From Brevibacterium sp. UCMA 11754 (GTDB taxonomy: Bacteria > Actinomycetota > Actinomycetes > Actinomycetales > Brevibacteriaceae), in assembly GCF_021532275.1 (NCBI RefSeq), contig NZ_JACBOT010000031.1:62001-126000 (forward strand): a DNA stretch of 64,000 bases, read 5' to 3'. The notes under the pieces are model-generated. The model ran no database searches. It had not been told where the DNA came from and saw nothing but the letters and a program-made list of their open reading frames with translations. The translations under genes were made by a program, and so were the position numbers. The first letter of the stretch is position 1. Every line of letters starts with the position of its first letter. This document shows, piece after piece, positions 25,779 to 32,225 of the stretch.

Positions 25779-26662
25779 CTGATCAACTCACCCCAGTGGC
25801 CATCGGCAATCACCTCGTCGGCCCGAATCAGCCCGTGTACATGATCGGCGAAATCGGCATCAACCACAACGGCGACGTCGAAATCGCGAAGCAGCTCATG
25901 GACGTCGCCGTCACCGCCGGTGCCCAGGCCGTGAAGTTCCAGAAGCGCAACCCCGATGTGGCTGTGCCCGAACACCAGAAGTCGAAGATGCGCTCGACCC
26001 CGTGGGGCGAGATGACCTACCTCGACTACAAGTGGCGCGTCGAGTTCGGCCAGGAAGAATACGCCGAGATCGACCGCTATGCCAAGGAAGTCGGTCTGCA
26101 GTGGTTCGCCTCCCCCTGGGACACTGACTCCGTGGACTTCCTCGAGAACGAGTTCGACGCCCTGACCTACAAGGTCGCTTCGGCCTCGCTGACGGACTTC
26201 GAACTCCTCCGTGCGATCGCCGCAACCGGCAAGCCCGTCCTGTGCTCCTCGGGCATGTCCGACTGGGCCACACTGGATGCAGCCGTCGAGGTCTTCGACC
26301 GCGACAAGCTGGTCCTCATGCACGCCACCTCGACCTACCCGCTGCCTCCCGAAGAGGTCAACCTCAAGGCCATCACCACCATGCGCGAGCGTTACGGCGT
26401 GAATGTGGGCTACTCCGGCCACGAGCTGGGCCTCGAGATCTCCTTCGCCGCCGCCGCACTGGGCGCTGCGACCATCGAACGCCACATCACCCTGGACTCC
26501 TCCATGTGGGGCTCGGACCAGTCCGCATCGATGGAACCACGCGAGTTCACTTCACTGGTCAAGGGCGTGCGCGTCCTCGAAACAGCCTTCGGTGACGGTG
26601 AGAAGCGCGTCATGCCAGGCGAAGAGTCGAAGATCGATTCGCTCCGCAAGGTCAGCGTCTGA
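25775..26662 (+). CDS. neuB: NeuB-type nonulosonic acid synthase without SAF domain
   Basis: The 295-aa TIM-barrel enzyme has YMIGEIGINHNGDVEIAKQL, AQAVKFQKRNPD, QWFASPWDTDSVDFLE, KVASASLTDFELL, VLCSSGMSDWATLD and VGYSGHELGLEISFAAAALGAATIERHITLD. These are the PEP-condensing NeuB/SpsE motifs. Classical sialic acid synthases add a C-terminal ~60-aa SAF domain; here the protein stops at SLRKVSV. SAF-less enzymes include 9-phosphate synthases. The start overlaps the fusion gene by 4 bp. A diverged second copy of the last 34 codons lies at 29158. Confidence 0.92.
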   Translation: MTDQLTPVAIGNHLVGPNQPVYMIGEIGINHNGDVEIAKQLMDVAVTAGAQAVKFQKRNPDVAVPEHQKSKMRSTPWGEMTYLDYKWRVEFGQEEYAEIDRYAKEVGLQWFASPWDTDSVDFLENEFDALTYKVASASLTDFELLRAIAATGKPVLCSSGMSDWATLDAAVEVFDRDKLVLMHATSTYPLPPEEVNLKAITTMRERYGVNVGYSGHELGLEISFAAAALGAATIERHITLDSSMWGSDQSASMEPREFTSLVKGVRVLETAFGDGEKRVMPGEESKIDSLRKVSV

Positions 26663-26722
26663 TCTGATCTGACCCTCGGCTGATCTGATCGCGCTTTGAC
26701 CTGATCAACTGATTACGGCCCC
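26660..26722 (+). repeat. 21-bp imperfect repeats reiterating the neuB stop codon
   Basis: Reading on in the neuB frame past the stop, units starting TGA-TCT-GAT, TGA-TCT-GAT and TGA-TCA-ACT recur every 21 bp, so two extra in-frame TGA codons follow the true stop. This resembles the post-stop repeats of rpfB and metQ. Confidence 0.6.
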
Positions 26723-27162
26723 ATCACCTCGCCGGGCTCACATGATCGTCGCAACACTCTTAACGAGAGGTTGCGGCGATCATGTAGATTCAAGAAGACT
26801 GCGCTCGGTTCGGTGACGAATCGACGCGACTGGAAGATGCCGAGACTCCGGCGAAAGAAGCCGCGGTCGTGGTAGGAGCTCCGCCACAGCGATTCACCTG
26901 CGGCTTCGACTGCCTTGGAGAGGTTCAACGGGAAGAGATTCATCGCCCTGTACGGCTCTAGGTATCCACGGGCCGCCAGAATGATCGCGAGGAACTGTGC
27001 ACCACCAGAGAACCAAACACGGAATGTCGCGAAGATCGTTGATGTGATAGGCGAGCCAGTCGGATTGCTCCGACGAGTGAGCGGGTTGATCAGATCAGGG
27101 AAGGTGCCAGTCTTCTCCAAGATCCCGCACGGGACAGCGGCGACGATCGCTACAGTTCTCAA
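26713..27162 (-). CDS. Uncertain hypothetical ORF in the accessory segment
   Basis: This 149-codon frame has plausible composition in its middle (IFATFRVWFSGGAQFLAIILAARGYLEPYRAMNLFPLNLSKAVEAAGESLWRS). Its last ~25 codons run through the neuB terminator hairpin and flanking DNA, so it is probably either a truncated gene or spurious. A plus-strand frame at 26915-27271 overlaps it and is equally plausible. I recognise no family. No other gene is evident between 27,163 and 27,573. Confidence 0.25.
   Translation of the reverse strand: MRTVAIVAAVPCGILEKTGTFPDLINPLTRRSNPTGSPITSTIFATFRVWFSGGAQFLAIILAARGYLEPYRAMNLFPLNLSKAVEAAGESLWRSSYHDRGFFRRSLGIFQSRRFVTEPSAVFLNLHDRRNLSLRVLRRSCEPGEVMGP
26740..26785. 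terminator. Hairpin downstream of neuB
   Basis: Sixteen-base arms ACATGATCGTCGCAAC and GTTGCGGCGATCATGT pair with one G-U, around a 14-nt loop that itself contains CTCT/AGAG. It lies 78 bp past the neuB stop and probably ends the biosynthetic operon. It also marks the left edge of the accessory segment. Confidence 0.75.
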
Positions 27163-27455
27163 GGTTAAACAAAAGCCGGCGAGATTGGAGTCCTGTCAGT
27201 TCCGGCATCGATGCCAGGCATCAAATAGCCGAGCGCATGCGACATTGGCATCGGACTACATGACCGCTTAATTAGGGGTGGCAGAAGAAGACGGCTCGCT
27301 CGCCGAAGCGTTCGTTGGAGCGAATCTCCTAGTCCACCGATCTCGCATTAAAGACAATACTGACACGAGGCTGCCGCACGCCGAAAGTACGCCCGAACGC
27401 GCTTCTAAGTTATCGACAATTTCACAGCACCCGCTGACGAATCCTGAATGACATA

Positions 27456-27494
27456 AAGGGCATGACTCCAATGAGATATTAGAATCATGCCCTT
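27456..27494. terminator. Hairpin downstream of the small membrane protein gene
   Basis: Perfect 10-bp arms AAGGGCATGA and TCATGCCCTT flank a 19-nt loop. It lies about 80 bp beyond the stop of the minus-strand gene at 27574 and is the likely terminator of the bacteriocin-like unit. Confidence 0.65.
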
Positions 27495-27573
27495 AAACGA
27501 ATTTCAGTCTAGGACTCCACCAGCCCGCTGCCCGGAACCTATTCAACTATTGGCACCATGTAGTCTCGAATCC

Positions 27574-27780
27574 TCACTTTGGAACAAACTGAGACACATC
27601 CGCGCCCCTGTCCTTTCTTCGGTGCTGGACCAGCAACGCGATGAACGTCGACAAAAGGATAAGGGGAAACACAATCACAAACAAAATTGACGTGACCCCG
27701 AAGGTGGGTTCACCAACCCCACTTAAAATGCTCGTGGCCAACGACAAACCGAGAGCAAACGACATAATGATATCTCTCAT
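27574..27780 (-). CDS. Small two-helix membrane protein, candidate immunity or export partner
   Basis: The 68-aa protein has two hydrophobic segments (about residues 5-25 and 29-52; TSILFVIVFPLILLSTFIALLV) followed by a basic tail (QHRRKDRG). The ATG at 27780 follows GGAGG. It lies 27 bp downstream of the cysteine-rich precursor gene, on the same strand and before a hairpin. Size, topology and linkage fit a bacteriocin immunity protein, but no family is recognisable, so the role is inference. Confidence 0.55.
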   Translation of the reverse strand: MRDIIMSFALGLSLATSILSGVGEPTFGVTSILFVIVFPLILLSTFIALLVQHRRKDRGADVSQFVPK

Positions 27781-27807
27781 GACTTACGCCTCCACTTCTA
27801 ACTGCTT

Positions 27808-28998
27808 TCACGGCTTTACTCCACAAGGGAAGCAAGCTCCACCTTCTTGCTTGTTGCAACACTTTATAAGCGCAGCCCCGCACGTCGTAGCAACGCACCC
27901 GATGCAATTTAAGTTGATCTTAGTGCAACCTGCTACGCAACCCGCGCAGCCAACGCCACTCAAAACGCAGTCAACAGGAGCGGTTGTCTTGCATATTGAG
28001 GCAAGCGCCTGATGAGTAGCACTCGTACATCCACCGCAGGGATCTGATGCGTGAGGACTCACCCCATCGGGGACAGGCTCCATACGAATTCCGTTCGAAC
28101 TGGAATCCACGATCTCAAGTCGGTCCGCACCAACATCAACCACATAACGTTCGGCTCTAATCTCGGTCTCAGGCCCATCTTTGTTGAAGTTGATAACATA
28201 CATCACCTTCGCGTCTTCGATGGTGACAGTAAGCGTGTCGACGACCCGCCCGTCCTTCATGTTCTTCATCGCGGCCTGCGCGACTGGCATACTCGAACTG
28301 TACGTCGAAAGCGCACCCGACGTCGACAACTGGAACTGCGATTCGGTGAGCTCATCGACAGCTTGTGGCGAACTCGACTTCACGAGCTCTACATCCTCTG
28401 AGTCAGCGATACTGAGAAAGTCTTCGCTCTTGAGTGCATCAGAAATCAGCTCCGCGACCTTGGGCCGCGAAGCGTAGGATACGGACTTCACAGGTGACTC
28501 TGCAGCAGAGGCAGGGCGCACGCCCGCGAAAGTACCGGTGGCAAAAATCCCGACCGTAGCGGCAACCCCTGCGGCGATCTGCCCAAACCCACGTCGCGAG
28601 AGGGTCCTAGCTTCGCCCTGACTCTTATCGTGAGCGTGTCCGGACCTTTCGATGCCCAAAATCTTCAGAACCCGAACTGAGGCTTCCATGCCGATTTCTC
28701 GCGCAATAAGTGGTGCGATCCTTGGGCCTACCCAGCACCGAGGCTCACCCTGAGTTACTTTAAGTAGGGTGGGCTTGTGAGGCGCATCCTCCCCAAATAC
28801 TTCTCGTCTGGCTTTAAGTGCAAAAGCGGAATCCAACGGGAGCACCGCCAGCTGTCCTTTCGTGGCTTCTTCAAGCTTCTGCGAGATTTGGGCGCACGTC
28901 GAACACTGAGCATCAAAAAGTAGCCAGGTACCCGAACGAGTGACCTCGTCGCTATCGTGTTCATCAGGTCTGCTGGTTGCTGTTTGGGGCTGTGACAT
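27808..28998 (-). CDS. Thioredoxin-like / Tat / cysteine-rich protein, halocin C8-type bacteriocin precursor candidate
   Basis: ATG 28998 follows GAGGAAATTAGG, giving 396 aa. Residues ~24-125 form a thiol-oxidoreductase-like domain (TWLLFDAQCSTCAQISQKL, a C-x-x-C at 32-35, then LAVLPLDS), similar to DCC/thioredoxin folds. At 134-138 there is a twin-arginine motif, SRRGF, followed by a hydrophobic helix and AxA-type cleavage site (RPASAAES). A soluble ~150-residue region follows. The last 76 residues hold 14 cysteines (321, 324, 336, 344, 351, 354, 358, 365, 368, 373, 380, 381, 389, 392) in small-residue-rich blocks such as CVLSGVGCAGCVAGC. Halocin C8 precursors have a comparable Tat leader, immunity-like region and Cys-rich mature peptide. 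The N-terminal redox domain fused ahead of the Tat motif is unusual. Confidence 0.65.
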   Translation of the reverse strand: MSQPQTATSRPDEHDSDEVTRSGTWLLFDAQCSTCAQISQKLEEATKGQLAVLPLDSAFALKARREVFGEDAPHKPTLLKVTQGEPRCWVGPRIAPLIAREIGMEASVRVLKILGIERSGHAHDKSQGEARTLSRRGFGQIAAGVAATVGIFATGTFAGVRPASAAESPVKSVSYASRPKVAELISDALKSEDFLSIADSEDVELVKSSSPQAVDELTESQFQLSTSGALSTYSSSMPVAQAAMKNMKDGRVVDTLTVTIEDAKVMYVINFNKDGPETEIRAERYVVDVGADRLEIVDSSSNGIRMEPVPDGVSPHASDPCGGCTSATHQALASICKTTAPVDCVLSGVGCAGCVAGCTKINLNCIGCVATTCGAALIKCCNKQEGGACFPCGVKP

Positions 28999-29157
28999 CC
29001 TAATTTCCTCACCCTCGGAAGTACTCTCGCACAACCGACGCTATCAGGGTTTATATGCGATTTGAGCACAATTCCCCTGTTCTTTTAAATCTCCTGAAGA
29101 TGGCAAGCGATCTAGTTTAAACATCAAGCCTTGAGTTCACACCCAAAAGAGAACCTC

Positions 29158-29260
29158 GAAGGGTGTGCGCGTCCTCGAAACCGCCTTTGGTGACGGCAAG
29201 AAGCACGTCATGCCAGGCGAAGAGTCGAAGTTCGATTCGCTGCGCAAGGTCAGCGTCTGA
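29158..29260 (+). pseudogene. Second, diverged 3' end of neuB
   Basis: The sequence encodes KGVRVLETAFGDGKKHVMPG followed by EESKFDSLRKVSV and a stop. This corresponds to the last 34 codons of neuB (26561-26662) at roughly 90% nucleotide identity, with four visible residue changes (E-K, R-H, I-F and neighbours). The similarity continues beyond the stop to the ACGGCCCCATCACCTCGCC block. Upstream of 29158 it stops abruptly. It marks the right edge of the accessory segment. The divergence means it is not a recent copy of the neighbouring neuB. Confidence 0.9.
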
Positions 29261-29295
29261 CCTGATCGTGCATCGATCTGGTCAGCTGATCACGG

Positions 29296-29322
29296 CCCCA
29301 TCACCTCGCCGAGGTGGTGGGG
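29296..29322. terminator. CGCCGAGGTG palindrome after the neuB remnant
   Basis: CCCCATCACCTCG-C-CGAGGTGGTGGGG is a 27-nt palindrome with a single central base and one U-G pair in RNA. It contains an exact copy of the overrepresented 10-mer CGCCGAGGTG. It lies 36 bp after the remnant stop and would have been the terminator of that neuB copy. Confidence 0.7.
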
Positions 29323-29520
29323 TCGTTGTCGTGTTCCCTCGCTGAGATGGTGGGACCGTTCCAGAGTCAGGTTTGCACGGCTCCAGACGATATAGTCACA
29401 CAGGTCATTGATGCCGATGAGAAGCACACCGGATGCGGCGACTTGGACTGCACCCTGAAATGGGACCTTCGTGAAGATCCTGGATCACTAAGAATCTTCA
29501 AAGACGAACAGCCAAAATGA
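29314..29520 (+). pseudogene. Possible 3' remnant of an unknown gene
   Basis: The frame gives 68 aa; its first ~20 residues come from palindrome DNA. The end (PDDIVTQVIDADEKHTGCGDLDCTLKWDLREDPGSLRIFKDEQPK) has the composition of a genuine C-terminus. It stops 10 bp before the next gene, suggesting a truncated first gene of a pair. I recognise no family. Confidence 0.25.
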
Positions 29521-29530
29521 AGAGCGAGGC

Positions 29531-29824
29531 ATGGAAACCCCAGCACCAAATCAGTGGAATATCGATCGGATAGACGAGATCGTATTTCCAGCGTTGCAAC
29601 GTCTCCTCAAAGAGGGAGAGCTTGACGGAGTCTCAATCGAGTCCGACGGCCCCAATTTACGCATGCTCTGGGGACGATTCTGCGTTCGCGGTGAGAGAAT
29701 TCGAGTACTCGTTTCGGACTCGGACATCACTGAATCGTTAGAAGAGGCCAAACAGCGGTTCTACGAACAGCTTCAATCCGAAATAGCCGAAACTACTTTC
29801 GCGTGGGGAGAGCTTCGCGAATAG
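29531..29824 (+). CDS. Hypothetical acidic protein, 97 aa
   Basis: The small protein (pI acidic; VFPALQRLLKEGELDGVSIES, FCVRGERIRVLVSDSDI, SLEEAKQRFYEQLQSEIAETTFAW) has the alpha/beta pattern and size of many immunity or antitoxin proteins, but no family is recognisable. GAGCGAGG precedes the ATG. GC content is below that of the glycan genes around it. It may have been paired with the truncated frame just upstream. From 29,825 to 30,067 only the palindrome at 29885 is seen. Confidence 0.5.
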   Translation: METPAPNQWNIDRIDEIVFPALQRLLKEGELDGVSIESDGPNLRMLWGRFCVRGERIRVLVSDSDITESLEEAKQRFYEQLQSEIAETTFAWGELRE

Positions 29825-29884
29825 CTAAATGGAGGTCCCCTACCTTGGGCGCCTCGGCAACTGGCTCCCGAGCTGCATCTACCG

Positions 29885-29917
29885 TGGCCGCATCATCTCG
29901 CCGAGGTGGTGGGGCCA
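29885..29917. terminator. Palindrome with CGCCGAGGTG after the 97-aa gene
   Basis: Sixteen-base arms (TGGCCGCATCATCTCG and CGAGGTGGTGGGGCCA) around a single C pair with two G-U and one mismatch. The centre is the same CTCGCCGAG core as the palindrome at 29296 and contains the exact 10-mer. It lies 60 bp past the stop of the 97-aa gene, fitting a terminator. Confidence 0.6.
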
Positions 29918-30067
29918 TGGTCATTTCCGCACGTCGGTATCGGGGTCTGTGTAAATAGGAGTGTAAGTCAGCGCCGGAATTCCGGGACCTCACGAAATAC
30001 AGAGCCCGGTGTCTACTCGAAGATGGCATCTTGAGATCAGATCTTCACTCACATCGACTTCGAGCCA

Positions 30068-30262
30068 CTAAAGTGAGGGGTTAGCAGCGATCGTCCGCCT
30101 TCGCCGTCTCTCGCGACCAATAGCGATCACAATAGCGATGGCGGCTAACAGCAATCCCACGCACCACAGCCACGCAGCATAGGGTGCAAACCACGGGCTG
30201 GTTCCGACGATAGGCAAGAACGCAGCGACCATAAGCAGTATCAAAACGATATGTTTACGCAT
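30068..30262 (-). CDS. Small two-helix membrane protein, 64 aa
   Basis: From ATG 30262 (MRKHIVLILLMVAAF) the protein has two hydrophobic segments (about residues 3-18 and 28-50) and an Arg-rich C-terminus (IGRERRRRRTIAANPSL). An ATG 12 bp upstream is possible. No family is recognisable. It is the last gene on this strand after the pyruvyl transferase. Confidence 0.5.
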   Translation of the reverse strand: MRKHIVLILLMVAAFLPIVGTSPWFAPYAAWLWCVGLLLAAIAIVIAIGRERRRRRTIAANPSL

Positions 30263-30401
30263 TGGGCTCCTCACAGTTGCGCCAGGTACTTGCCAACATT
30301 CGTACCGTTCGCCACATCAAACACAGCGACTCAGACCAGGCATCTTGCTCCCACCGTAACAGTCCACGCGACTCCGGCTTCTCCACTGCATGCGCTTCTA
30401 T

Positions 30402-32225
30402 TCAGCGTTTGAATGCGCGCCTGATTCGCCGAGCTCTCCACGCCACCCCATGCGCCGTCTTGTCGATGAGGACCTTCGCCTCGGCGGTGGCAGTACGGTC
30501 GTTGACCGCCTTGAGCCGAACCTCGGACTCCTCGAGCTGTTTCCGCAGTCCGGCGGAAGTGGCGGCGTGGCGGTCCCTCTCCGCAGTCTGAGCGGCGAGT
30601 TCCGTGGTTCGGGCGTCAAGCTCCGCAGACTGTCGCTCGAGCTGAGACTCCTTGTGTTTGAGTTCCGCTCGAAGGTTCTCGCGTTCCGTCTCGAGGGTCT
30701 TGCTGTGCGTGGCGGCGCTTTCGAACTTCTTCTTGTGCTCGCGGCGGATTTTAGTGAGGTCTCGCGTCTGCGCGGCACTGAATTCCTCGGCTTCGGCCAC
30801 CGCCGTGAGGTGGAATTCCTCGGCTCGGATGTCGGCAGAGGTGCGCAGTCTCTCGGGACCGGTCGACTGCCCAGCAGCCGTTCCCGTCGCGACGGGGCTC
30901 GACCCAGGTCGCAGTCGATCGTGGATCACTGCATGGTTGTTTCGAGTGATGTCGTGGAAGTCCTGTCGAGTCGACATCAAGTCGTCCTGCAGGTCGTTGC
31001 CCTGTGCGTGAGCCTGCTCGATCGTATCGACGATCCGCTGGGCCAGTGCGTGAGCTCGCTGAGCCACATCTTGGGGACCGCAGTCAGCGGCGTCGGTGCC
31101 GGTGATGCCTGCGCCACCGACTTCCGTAGTCGCGCTCTCCGACGCCATACCCTCGGGCCCCACCGGCACCACGAGTTCAGGATGCCCGATATCTTCAGCG
31201 AAGTAGCCGAGCTTGGCATGCAAGTCCAAGGAGATCGGGATCGAACCGACTCCGAAGGGAATCATCTGTGCGTGGCCGCGACCACCGAGCACATAAGGAA
31301 TGGAGGCGAACAGGTCAAAGCCGGCGAAGAACCCGACGTCGGAGCCATGCAGTCTGACCTCCTTGACCTCGGGCACCTCGGCGACCAACTGTGCCGACAC
31401 CTCGGCGTCATCGGGATGAAAGGGAGCACTGAGAATGGTCCACCCTCTGGCCACGAGCATGCGGGCGGCATTGATTGTGGCACGGTGGATCACCTCGACG
31501 TCAAAGCCTGCGGCCTGCTGGCGTGGGTGGACGAGCATCTGGATCGCCAGGACCTTCTTGCTCGGATCGGGGCGGCGGTCGATCAAGGGCTCGTAGAGCA
31601 GACCTGCGATGGTCGTCGGACACGGATGGAACCGGATCGCATTCGAACGAGAGATTGGCCCCACCTGGGATTCGGACGCAAGGCCCGCGGCCAGTGCCTG
31701 ATTCGGCAGTCGCCGATCGTAACTGCCGTCCGCGCCCAGGAACCGCGACATCGTCTCGATACTGCCGGTGTTGCGCAGACCGAAGAAGACGGACTGGTCG
31801 AGGACCTGACTGACATGGGAGCGCATCAGTTCGTCGAACTCTGGCTGGCCGGGGAACCGATTGTCGCCGAGCGCATAGACGATCAACGGCACTTCGATGG
31901 CGGCGAGCGCCTCGGCGGAGATCTTCCACTGCCAGCCCGAGAGCCGATTCGGGTTCGTGTCCTGGAGGAACAGTCCGCCACCGCCGATGACGACAGCATC
32001 GGCCGATGAATTGATCCGCTCGACCAGGGCCATGTCCACCTCGCGTCGCAGTGCCGCCGCCGAGGTGAAATCGACCTCACCGACCGACTGCCCCGAGGAA
32101 CCTGAGCCAGCCGAACCACCAGTGCCCAGCACTCGGAAAGCGTCCCTGACCACAGGGAACAGGGCTTTGTCGCCGTAGTTTCCCCAGGTCGGGATGTCGA
32201 AGTGGAACAGCTTCAGGTTCGGCAT
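30402..32225 (-). CDS. Polysaccharide pyruvyl transferase-family protein with C-terminal coiled coil
   Basis: The N-terminal ~400 residues match the polysaccharide pyruvyl transferase fold. Key blocks are FDIPTWGNYGDKALFPVV, ADAVVIGGGGLFLQDTNPNRLSGWQW, VFFGLRNTGSIETMSRFL, FHPCPTTIAGLL, SAPFHPDDAEVSAQL and ASIPYVLGGRGHAQMIPFGVGSIPISLD. These enzymes put a pyruvate ketal on glycan hexoses, adding negative charge. The C-terminal ~180 residues are a long charged coiled coil (SKTLETERENLRAELKHKESQLERQ), which is unusual and may tether the enzyme to a complex. It is divergent from the glycosyltransferase genes. ATG 32225 is used, with a GTG just upstream as alternative. Confidence 0.85.
   Translation of the reverse strand: MPNLKLFHFDIPTWGNYGDKALFPVVRDAFRVLGTGGSAGSGSSGQSVGEVDFTSAAALRREVDMALVERINSSADAVVIGGGGLFLQDTNPNRLSGWQWKISAEALAAIEVPLIVYALGDNRFPGQPEFDELMRSHVSQVLDQSVFFGLRNTGSIETMSRFLGADGSYDRRLPNQALAAGLASESQVGPISRSNAIRFHPCPTTIAGLLYEPLIDRRPDPSKKVLAIQMLVHPRQQAAGFDVEVIHRATINAARMLVARGWTILSAPFHPDDAEVSAQLVAEVPEVKEVRLHGSDVGFFAGFDLFASIPYVLGGRGHAQMIPFGVGSIPISLDLHAKLGYFAEDIGHPELVVPVGPEGMASESATTEVGGAGITGTDAADCGPQDVAQRAHALAQRIVDTIEQAHAQGNDLQDDLMSTRQDFHDITRNNHAVIHDRLRPGSSPVATGTAAGQSTGPERLRTSADIRAEEFHLTAVAEAEEFSAAQTRDLTKIRREHKKKFESAATHSKTLETERENLRAELKHKESQLERQSAELDARTTELAAQTAERDRHAATSAGLRKQLEESEVRLKAVNDRTATAEAKVLIDKTAHGVAWRARRIRRAFKR

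Follow-up and report, generated by a model that had tools for sequence, protein, structure and literature searches.

The gene examined here, on the minus strand of a 64,000-nt stretch of Brevibacterium DNA (the window), raises the question of what is made from a single polypeptide that joins a redox-type domain, an internal export signal and a cysteine-rich end. The initial annotation, made from the sequence alone, had proposed a 396-aa protein with a C-x-x-C domain, an internal SRRGF motif, an AxA site and a 14-cysteine end, followed 27 bp downstream by a 68-aa two-helix protein. The ORFs and residue positions agreed with this layout, the small protein being encoded at 27780-27574 and showing two hydropathy peaks. 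The precursor is referred to below as P0001 and its small partner as P0002, and the features of the locus (with the evidence for each in brackets) are as follows.

27808..28998, minus strand: precursor gene, 396 aa plus stop (ORF and homologues)
28633..28935, minus strand: thioredoxin-like head, residues ~22-122, with CSTC at 32-35 and the cis-proline motif KPT at 75-77 (invariant residues, model and weak matches)
28501..28602, minus strand: internal Tat-like signal, residues 133-166, with SRRGF, a hydrophobic stretch and ASAA (sequence and conservation)
28045..28500, minus strand: middle (pro) domain, residues 167-318, with predicted strands and an SxNG motif (low-confidence model)
27811..28044, minus strand: Cys-rich core with 14 Cys, residues 319-396 (related tails in Nocardiopsis, the Rubrobacter family and Thermomicrobium)
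27574..27780, minus strand: 68-aa two-helix membrane protein, probable immunity or accessory protein (neighbour counts; homologue beside the related gene of genome G020)
27456..27494, no strand assigned: inverted repeat, possible terminator, 3' of the gene pair (repeat search)
26561..26669, plus strand: 3' end of a neuB-like gene, direct repeat copy 1 (repeat search)
29159..29267, plus strand: direct repeat copy 2, at the other edge of the lower-GC segment (repeat search and genus matches)

The cysteines of P0001 lie at positions 32, 35 and 88, followed by fourteen between 321 and 392, all of these fourteen within the last 76 residues. SRRGF occupies residues 134-138 and ASAA residues 163-166, and a core counted from D319 comprises 78 aa with 14 Cys and a computed mass of ~7.53 kDa when fully oxidised. 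Pfam, NCBIfam and PADLOC models gave no convincing match to P0001 or P0002, and none matched in the anti-phage model search. Nevertheless, the locus is no product of chance, because a near-identical copy is found in a second genome of the genus (G022) and homologues occur in many others.

The gene pair sits in a segment of lower G+C content (0.54-0.57 in 2-kb windows over 26001-31000, with 0.62 on both sides), further dips, to 0.58, being present elsewhere in the window. This segment is bracketed by a direct repeat of 109 bp (92% identity) of the 3' end of a gene that we take to be neuB-like. When the DNA from 29150 onwards was used as a query against 57 genomes of the genus, 39 gave one match, 2 gave two and 16 gave none; the two matches occurred solely in the source genome and G022, both of which carry the segment at this place. 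As double matches are confined to segment-bearing genomes, the second neuB-like end appears to travel with the segment, which looks like an insertion, in line with the inserted DNA of the initial annotation, and which may have entered by recombination. In G020, a related gene is located at another place, ~330 kb from the match to the same query. The hairpin said to bound the gene pair was recovered as an inverted repeat (arms 27456-27472 and 27478-27494), but was not among the entries of a terminator scan.

Within the genus the gene is sporadic, being carried by 3 of the 57 genomes examined: the source genome, with one copy only; G022, whose near-identical copy is split over two contigs; and G020, whose copy (L012) is interrupted by a transposase gene, presumably ISL3-like, and is 69% identical in the head and 45% in the tail. 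Across the phylum, a profile of the head matched 30 genomes, strongly in 17 of 396, and the 13 weak matches (E 7e-6 to 9e-4), one of which (L032) resembles an ordinary thioredoxin, were left out of the membership. In the order of genome G108, which belongs to the same family group as the genomes holding the R. radiotolerans and R. taiwanensis contigs, 15 of 39 genomes matched strongly, with 21 copies. Named genomes yielded 30 loci, including ones in Rubrobacter, Streptomyces, Nocardiopsis, Kribbella, Nocardia, Actinomadura and the chloroflexote Ktedonosporobacter, to which tblastn added Streptomyces plasmids, a Rubrobacter radiotolerans plasmid and a Thermomicrobium roseum plasmid. The head thus occurs in Actinomycetota, Thermomicrobiota and Chloroflexota; phage and viral collections yielded no relatives. 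From 54 detected ORFs, 46 full-length members were retained and 8 were dropped as short or cut. On the T. roseum plasmid (NC_011961.1, L137), genes for an S8 peptidase, an MFS transporter, a response regulator, the precursor and a membrane protein are lined up consecutively on the same strand.

Four residues, C32, C35, P76 and R135, were invariant in all 46 members. The first three match the cysteine pair and cis-proline of a thioredoxin-type site, and R135 is the leading arginine of the Tat motif. The CxxC plus cis-proline active site of the thioredoxin-like superfamily is therefore present throughout, and the proposal of a redox-type domain ahead of an internal export signal is supported. 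The constant part comprises the first ~165 residues, behind which the cargo varies independently. A structural model of residues 21-120 (block-mean pLDDT 72-89) placed strands and helices in the order expected of a thioredoxin-type fold. The profile searches and structure prediction that the initial annotation had called for did point to thioredoxin, PDI and GST types, although all such matches were weak and mixed with others: head-profile matches to thioredoxins had E values of 0.019 and weaker, and the structure search returned thioredoxin, PDI and GST-N types amid unrelated chains (Z at most 5.4; none at E ≤ 0.001 with Foldseek). P0001 had no match to the DCC1-like model PF04134 at E ≤ 1 and so is not a member by that model, which matched two of the 46 members at E ≤ 0.01 (L005 and L056, below the Pfam cut-off); the thioredoxin model PF00085 gave a weak match in one member, and P0001 itself failed at E 1.

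The signal following the head has the consensus S/G-R-x-x-F-L-K/R, in which 39 of the 46 members have the F and 37 the L. Where the Tat motif would have its second arginine, R occurs 8 times, K 8, G 15, A 13 and S 2, so that 30 members have neither R nor K there. The twin-arginine motif of the initial annotation is present in P0001, one of eight members with RR, but the second arginine is missing from the other 38. Although P0001 carries both SRRGFG and ASA, Tat models gave no match to it at E ≤ 1; at E ≤ 0.01 they matched 1, 1 and 4 of the 46 members. A tatC gene was present in all six genomes searched. An internal Tat signal is known from the Streptomyces Rieske protein (PMC13186574).

Behind this constant front end the tails fall into several types. 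The NCBIfam fulvocin C-related model matched 23 of the 46 and Pfam M23 peptidase models matched two, while the remaining tails are unnamed and either densely Cys-rich like that of P0001, more loosely Cys-rich, or hydrophobic; the M23 and hydrophobic types have 2-6 Cys behind the head. The two fusions of head and signal to M23 peptidase domains, L029 (L060) and L031 (L063), come from two Rubrobacter-family genomes. At least eight cysteines in the last 180 aa were counted in 39 of 46 members, as against 6 of 253 distinct control ORFs. Pairwise comparison of 24 non-fulvocin members (23 plus the G020 pieces) gave a closer likeness between heads than between tails in 265 of 276 pairs. The heads were at least 50% identical in 173 non-fulvocin pairs, and for 136 of these BLAST returned no match between the tails at 1e-3.

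Neighbouring copies gave the same picture at closer range. G108 has four copies within 20 kb, whose ~70-130 nt of upstream sequence and heads align at 80-92% DNA identity until the match breaks off, somewhere in codons 97-144. Twin copies lie side by side on the Streptomyces NBC_00012 plasmid (L010, 3926-4969 and 5275-6264) as a natural swap of the core peptide: 811 of 813 nt are identical over 271 codons, and the last 53-54 residues are identical at 23 of 53 positions with the cysteines kept. The first few residues of the twins differ as well. The part of the NBC_00046 plasmid that was read contains one of the two twin versions alone. Because the twins diverge mainly there, the last 53-54 residues constitute the varying unit, and they resemble what a mature peptide would look like. 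Such adjacent genes, with near-identical heads and divergent tails, show, as far as gene comparison can, that cargo is exchanged behind a conserved head and signal. The survey of homologues thus found the proposed fusion to be constant as regards head and signal, and revealed a swapping of cargo among relatives that the initial annotation had not foreseen. Adjoining fulvocin-type genes on two Streptomyces plasmids, we also observed a secreted-looking protein of ~122 aa (L009, 4454-4822; L124, 3459-3827), its sequence common to both by eye, which precedes the gene on one plasmid and follows it on the other.

The G020 and Nocardiopsis tails are relatives of the P0001 tail itself, a Rubrobacter-family group is more weakly related to it, and the T. 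roseum tail, with 16 Cys, scored 39 bits against the class profile. In an alignment of ten sequences of the class, eight cysteines were invariant, and CxxC pairs are among the cysteines of the tail. A search of 396 genomes for relatives of the tail without the head gave its own genome as the sole strong match and eight weak ones (E 7e-5 or worse). Against solved structures the best E value was 0.15, and the model of the tail (mean pLDDT 39) was too low in confidence for a fold search. The fulvocin C-related model, NF033852, did not match the P0001 tail at E ≤ 1, which places it outside that family by this model; its 0 matches over 296 genomes of the phylum have no bearing on absence, since control genomes also gave 0.

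With a thioredoxin-like head, many tail cysteines including CxxC pairs, and a membrane partner, the protein might alternatively be an anchored redox or metal protein of the envelope, of which head and tail would pass electrons or metal across the membrane with the small protein as redox partner. We consider this quite improbable, as the same head bears unrelated cargoes that include M23 peptidases and tails with 2 Cys, half of the family (23/46) has fulvocin C-related tails, and the variation of the twins, lying mostly in the last 53-54 residues, is more readily explained by a diversifying peptide than by a carrier.

P0002 begins 27 nt past the stop codon of the precursor, with hydropathy peaks at residues 4-22 and 32-50. 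A small downstream ORF with at least two hydrophobic helices, starting within 200 nt, was found for 14 of 23 non-fulvocin and 0 of 23 fulvocin members, in loci with full flanks save for one fulvocin locus with 101 nt downstream only. In two sets of distinct control ORFs (mechanical ORFs) from the fetched loci, such an ORF followed 2 of 95 and 2 of 142, and the excess persisted (13/22 versus 2/95, p 7e-10) when the source locus, which had suggested the test, was excluded. One of the 14 positives, the partner of the M23-type L031, is a Pro- and Leu-rich frame and a doubtful gene, and the partner was absent in 9 of the 23 non-fulvocin members, including Nocardiopsis despite a tail close to that of P0001. 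A homologue of P0002 (E 8e-8) lies beside the G020 gene, and a 103-aa membrane protein is encoded 9 nt downstream of the T. roseum precursor. Partners tended to resemble each other where the tails did (6 of 38 tail-similar pairs versus 1 of 98 others, p 0.002), in a comparison that used a looser one-helix criterion and comprised few, related pairs, one of them near-identical. As regards linkage, the small membrane gene is thus commoner than expected, as for a bacteriocin with its cognate immunity gene, and the initial suggestion of a possible immunity gene is strengthened (14/23 members versus 2/95 control ORFs); judging from its sequence and position, the 68-aa membrane protein is probably such a gene.

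S8 proteases were also seen near heads, by motif in L053 and L054 and by annotation in R. radiotolerans and T. roseum. A general link to the S8 protease as a processing enzyme was not shown by this motif search, which is insensitive, as it missed the annotated R. radiotolerans protein.

Starting from the conserved head and signal, the exchange of cargo, the conserved core cysteines and the frequent membrane-protein neighbour, all of which the comparisons show in the genes themselves, we lean towards reading the locus as one member of a cassette family whose products are exported bacteriocin-like peptides, for the most part rich in disulfides, with a redox leader and, here, a 68-aa protector. 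For topology, processing, release, redox action on the cargo, antibacterial activity and immunity, we infer the following course. The head would remain on the cytoplasmic side, where its CxxC would act on the cysteines of the attached cargo, either making or rearranging disulfides, so that export is of a folded unit, or keeping the cargo inactive until export. The Tat system transports folded proteins, and because a peptide rich in disulfides would be expected to fold before taking this route, a CxxC domain ahead of the signal would be well placed for such folding. The part behind the signal would then cross the membrane and be cleaved by signal peptidase near ASA|A, and a further cleavage would release the ~76-aa, 14-Cys core, against which the 68-aa membrane protein would shield the producer. 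New cargoes would come by recombination behind the constant 5' part.

Cargoes with few cysteines make a pure disulfide role less obvious and, like the absence of the second arginine from most members, call for caution. As low-Cys cargoes bear the same head, and as the signal motif is so degenerate that the head may have assumed targeting, the head could be only a cytoplasmic anchor or export timer without redox work, the cargo folding outside via the usual enzymes. This seems to us unlikely, given that CxxC and cis-proline are invariant in 46/46 members across two phyla and would be needless in a mere anchor. The preferred reading, of a leader that acts on its own cargo, can be carried further to an export platform in which a leader with its own thioredoxin-type foldase and an often single-arginine, Tat-derived signal would let one polypeptide fold, check and export its cargo, the cargoes being swapped, along with membrane-protein antidotes, behind a 5' cassette. 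We offer this extension tentatively, as a possibility that falls somewhat short of probable.

The constant head offers one handle by which many bacteriocin-like peptides lacking annotation could be found, entire classes without a profile match among them, and ties the fulvocin C-related annotation to a wider set via a common redox-type module. It also raises two testable questions: whether a peptide's own leader can fold a disulfide-rich cargo in the cytoplasm before folded export, and whether an internal Tat-derived signal functions with one arginine. Altogether, the family suggests an undescribed way of making and exporting bacteriocin-like peptides, and among the literature matches listed no paper treated this architecture by title or abstract opening.

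Compared with known systems, the closest in layout is halocin C8, which likewise combines an export signal, a middle domain and a Cys-rich core in one polypeptide, but of which the two haloarchaeal precursors with an intact start have an N-terminal leader and no redox head. In two of three haloarchaeal loci read, a small hydrophobic protein follows: 68-aa genes, annotated as hypothetical, lie 24 and 19 nt past halocin C8-like genes (L127, 1804-2010; L128, 1799-2005), each product showing one strong hydrophobic peak. The identical order of parts, a core near 76 aa as given for halocin C8 (PMC11509114), these downstream genes, and a weak similarity between halocin precursors and another class of tails (probability 12%) could suggest a true halocin C8-type bacteriocin that acquired a redox domain. 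We regard such an origin as very improbable, since the halocin C8 model TIGR04449 did not match the tail at E ≤ 10 (halocin C8 itself, as control, scored 1.1e-16) and profile comparison of the P0001 tail class with halocin C8 gave a probability of 0.2%. Moreover, the partners are dissimilar (P0002 showed no similarity to the one haloarchaeal 68-aa protein compared), and the third haloarchaeal gene is followed by a 230-aa protein instead. Membership of the halocin C8 family was therefore rejected by these tests, and the parallel drawn in the initial annotation is reduced to a likeness of layout; the bacteriocin reading itself draws support from the fulvocin C-related tails and from the variable core of the twins.

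The fulvocin C-related proteins (NF033852) share a Cys-rich core and, in 23 of the 46 members, the same head and signal before their tails, and the twin copies have a variable part of 53-54 aa. Cys counts overlap (14 in P0001, 8-14 behind the head in fulvocin types). The NF033852 model spans the tail only (150 positions) and not the head, and the small membrane partner found with P0001 was absent in all 23 fulvocin types by the test used. With DCC1-like and thioredoxin-like proteins (PF04134, PF00085) the head shares a CxxC near the first strand, the cis-proline and the predicted thioredoxin-type order, but differs from them in being fused to an export signal and cargo. These comparisons suggest that the P0001 system is a kind of ribosomal Cys-rich bacteriocin-like peptide with a leader design that we did not find described. 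Polymorphic toxin systems combine a constant N-terminal trafficking part with an exchangeable C-terminal effector and a linked protective gene; compared with these, the P0001 family is small and has a thioredoxin-like head, an internal Tat-like signal and mostly disulfide-rich cargo.
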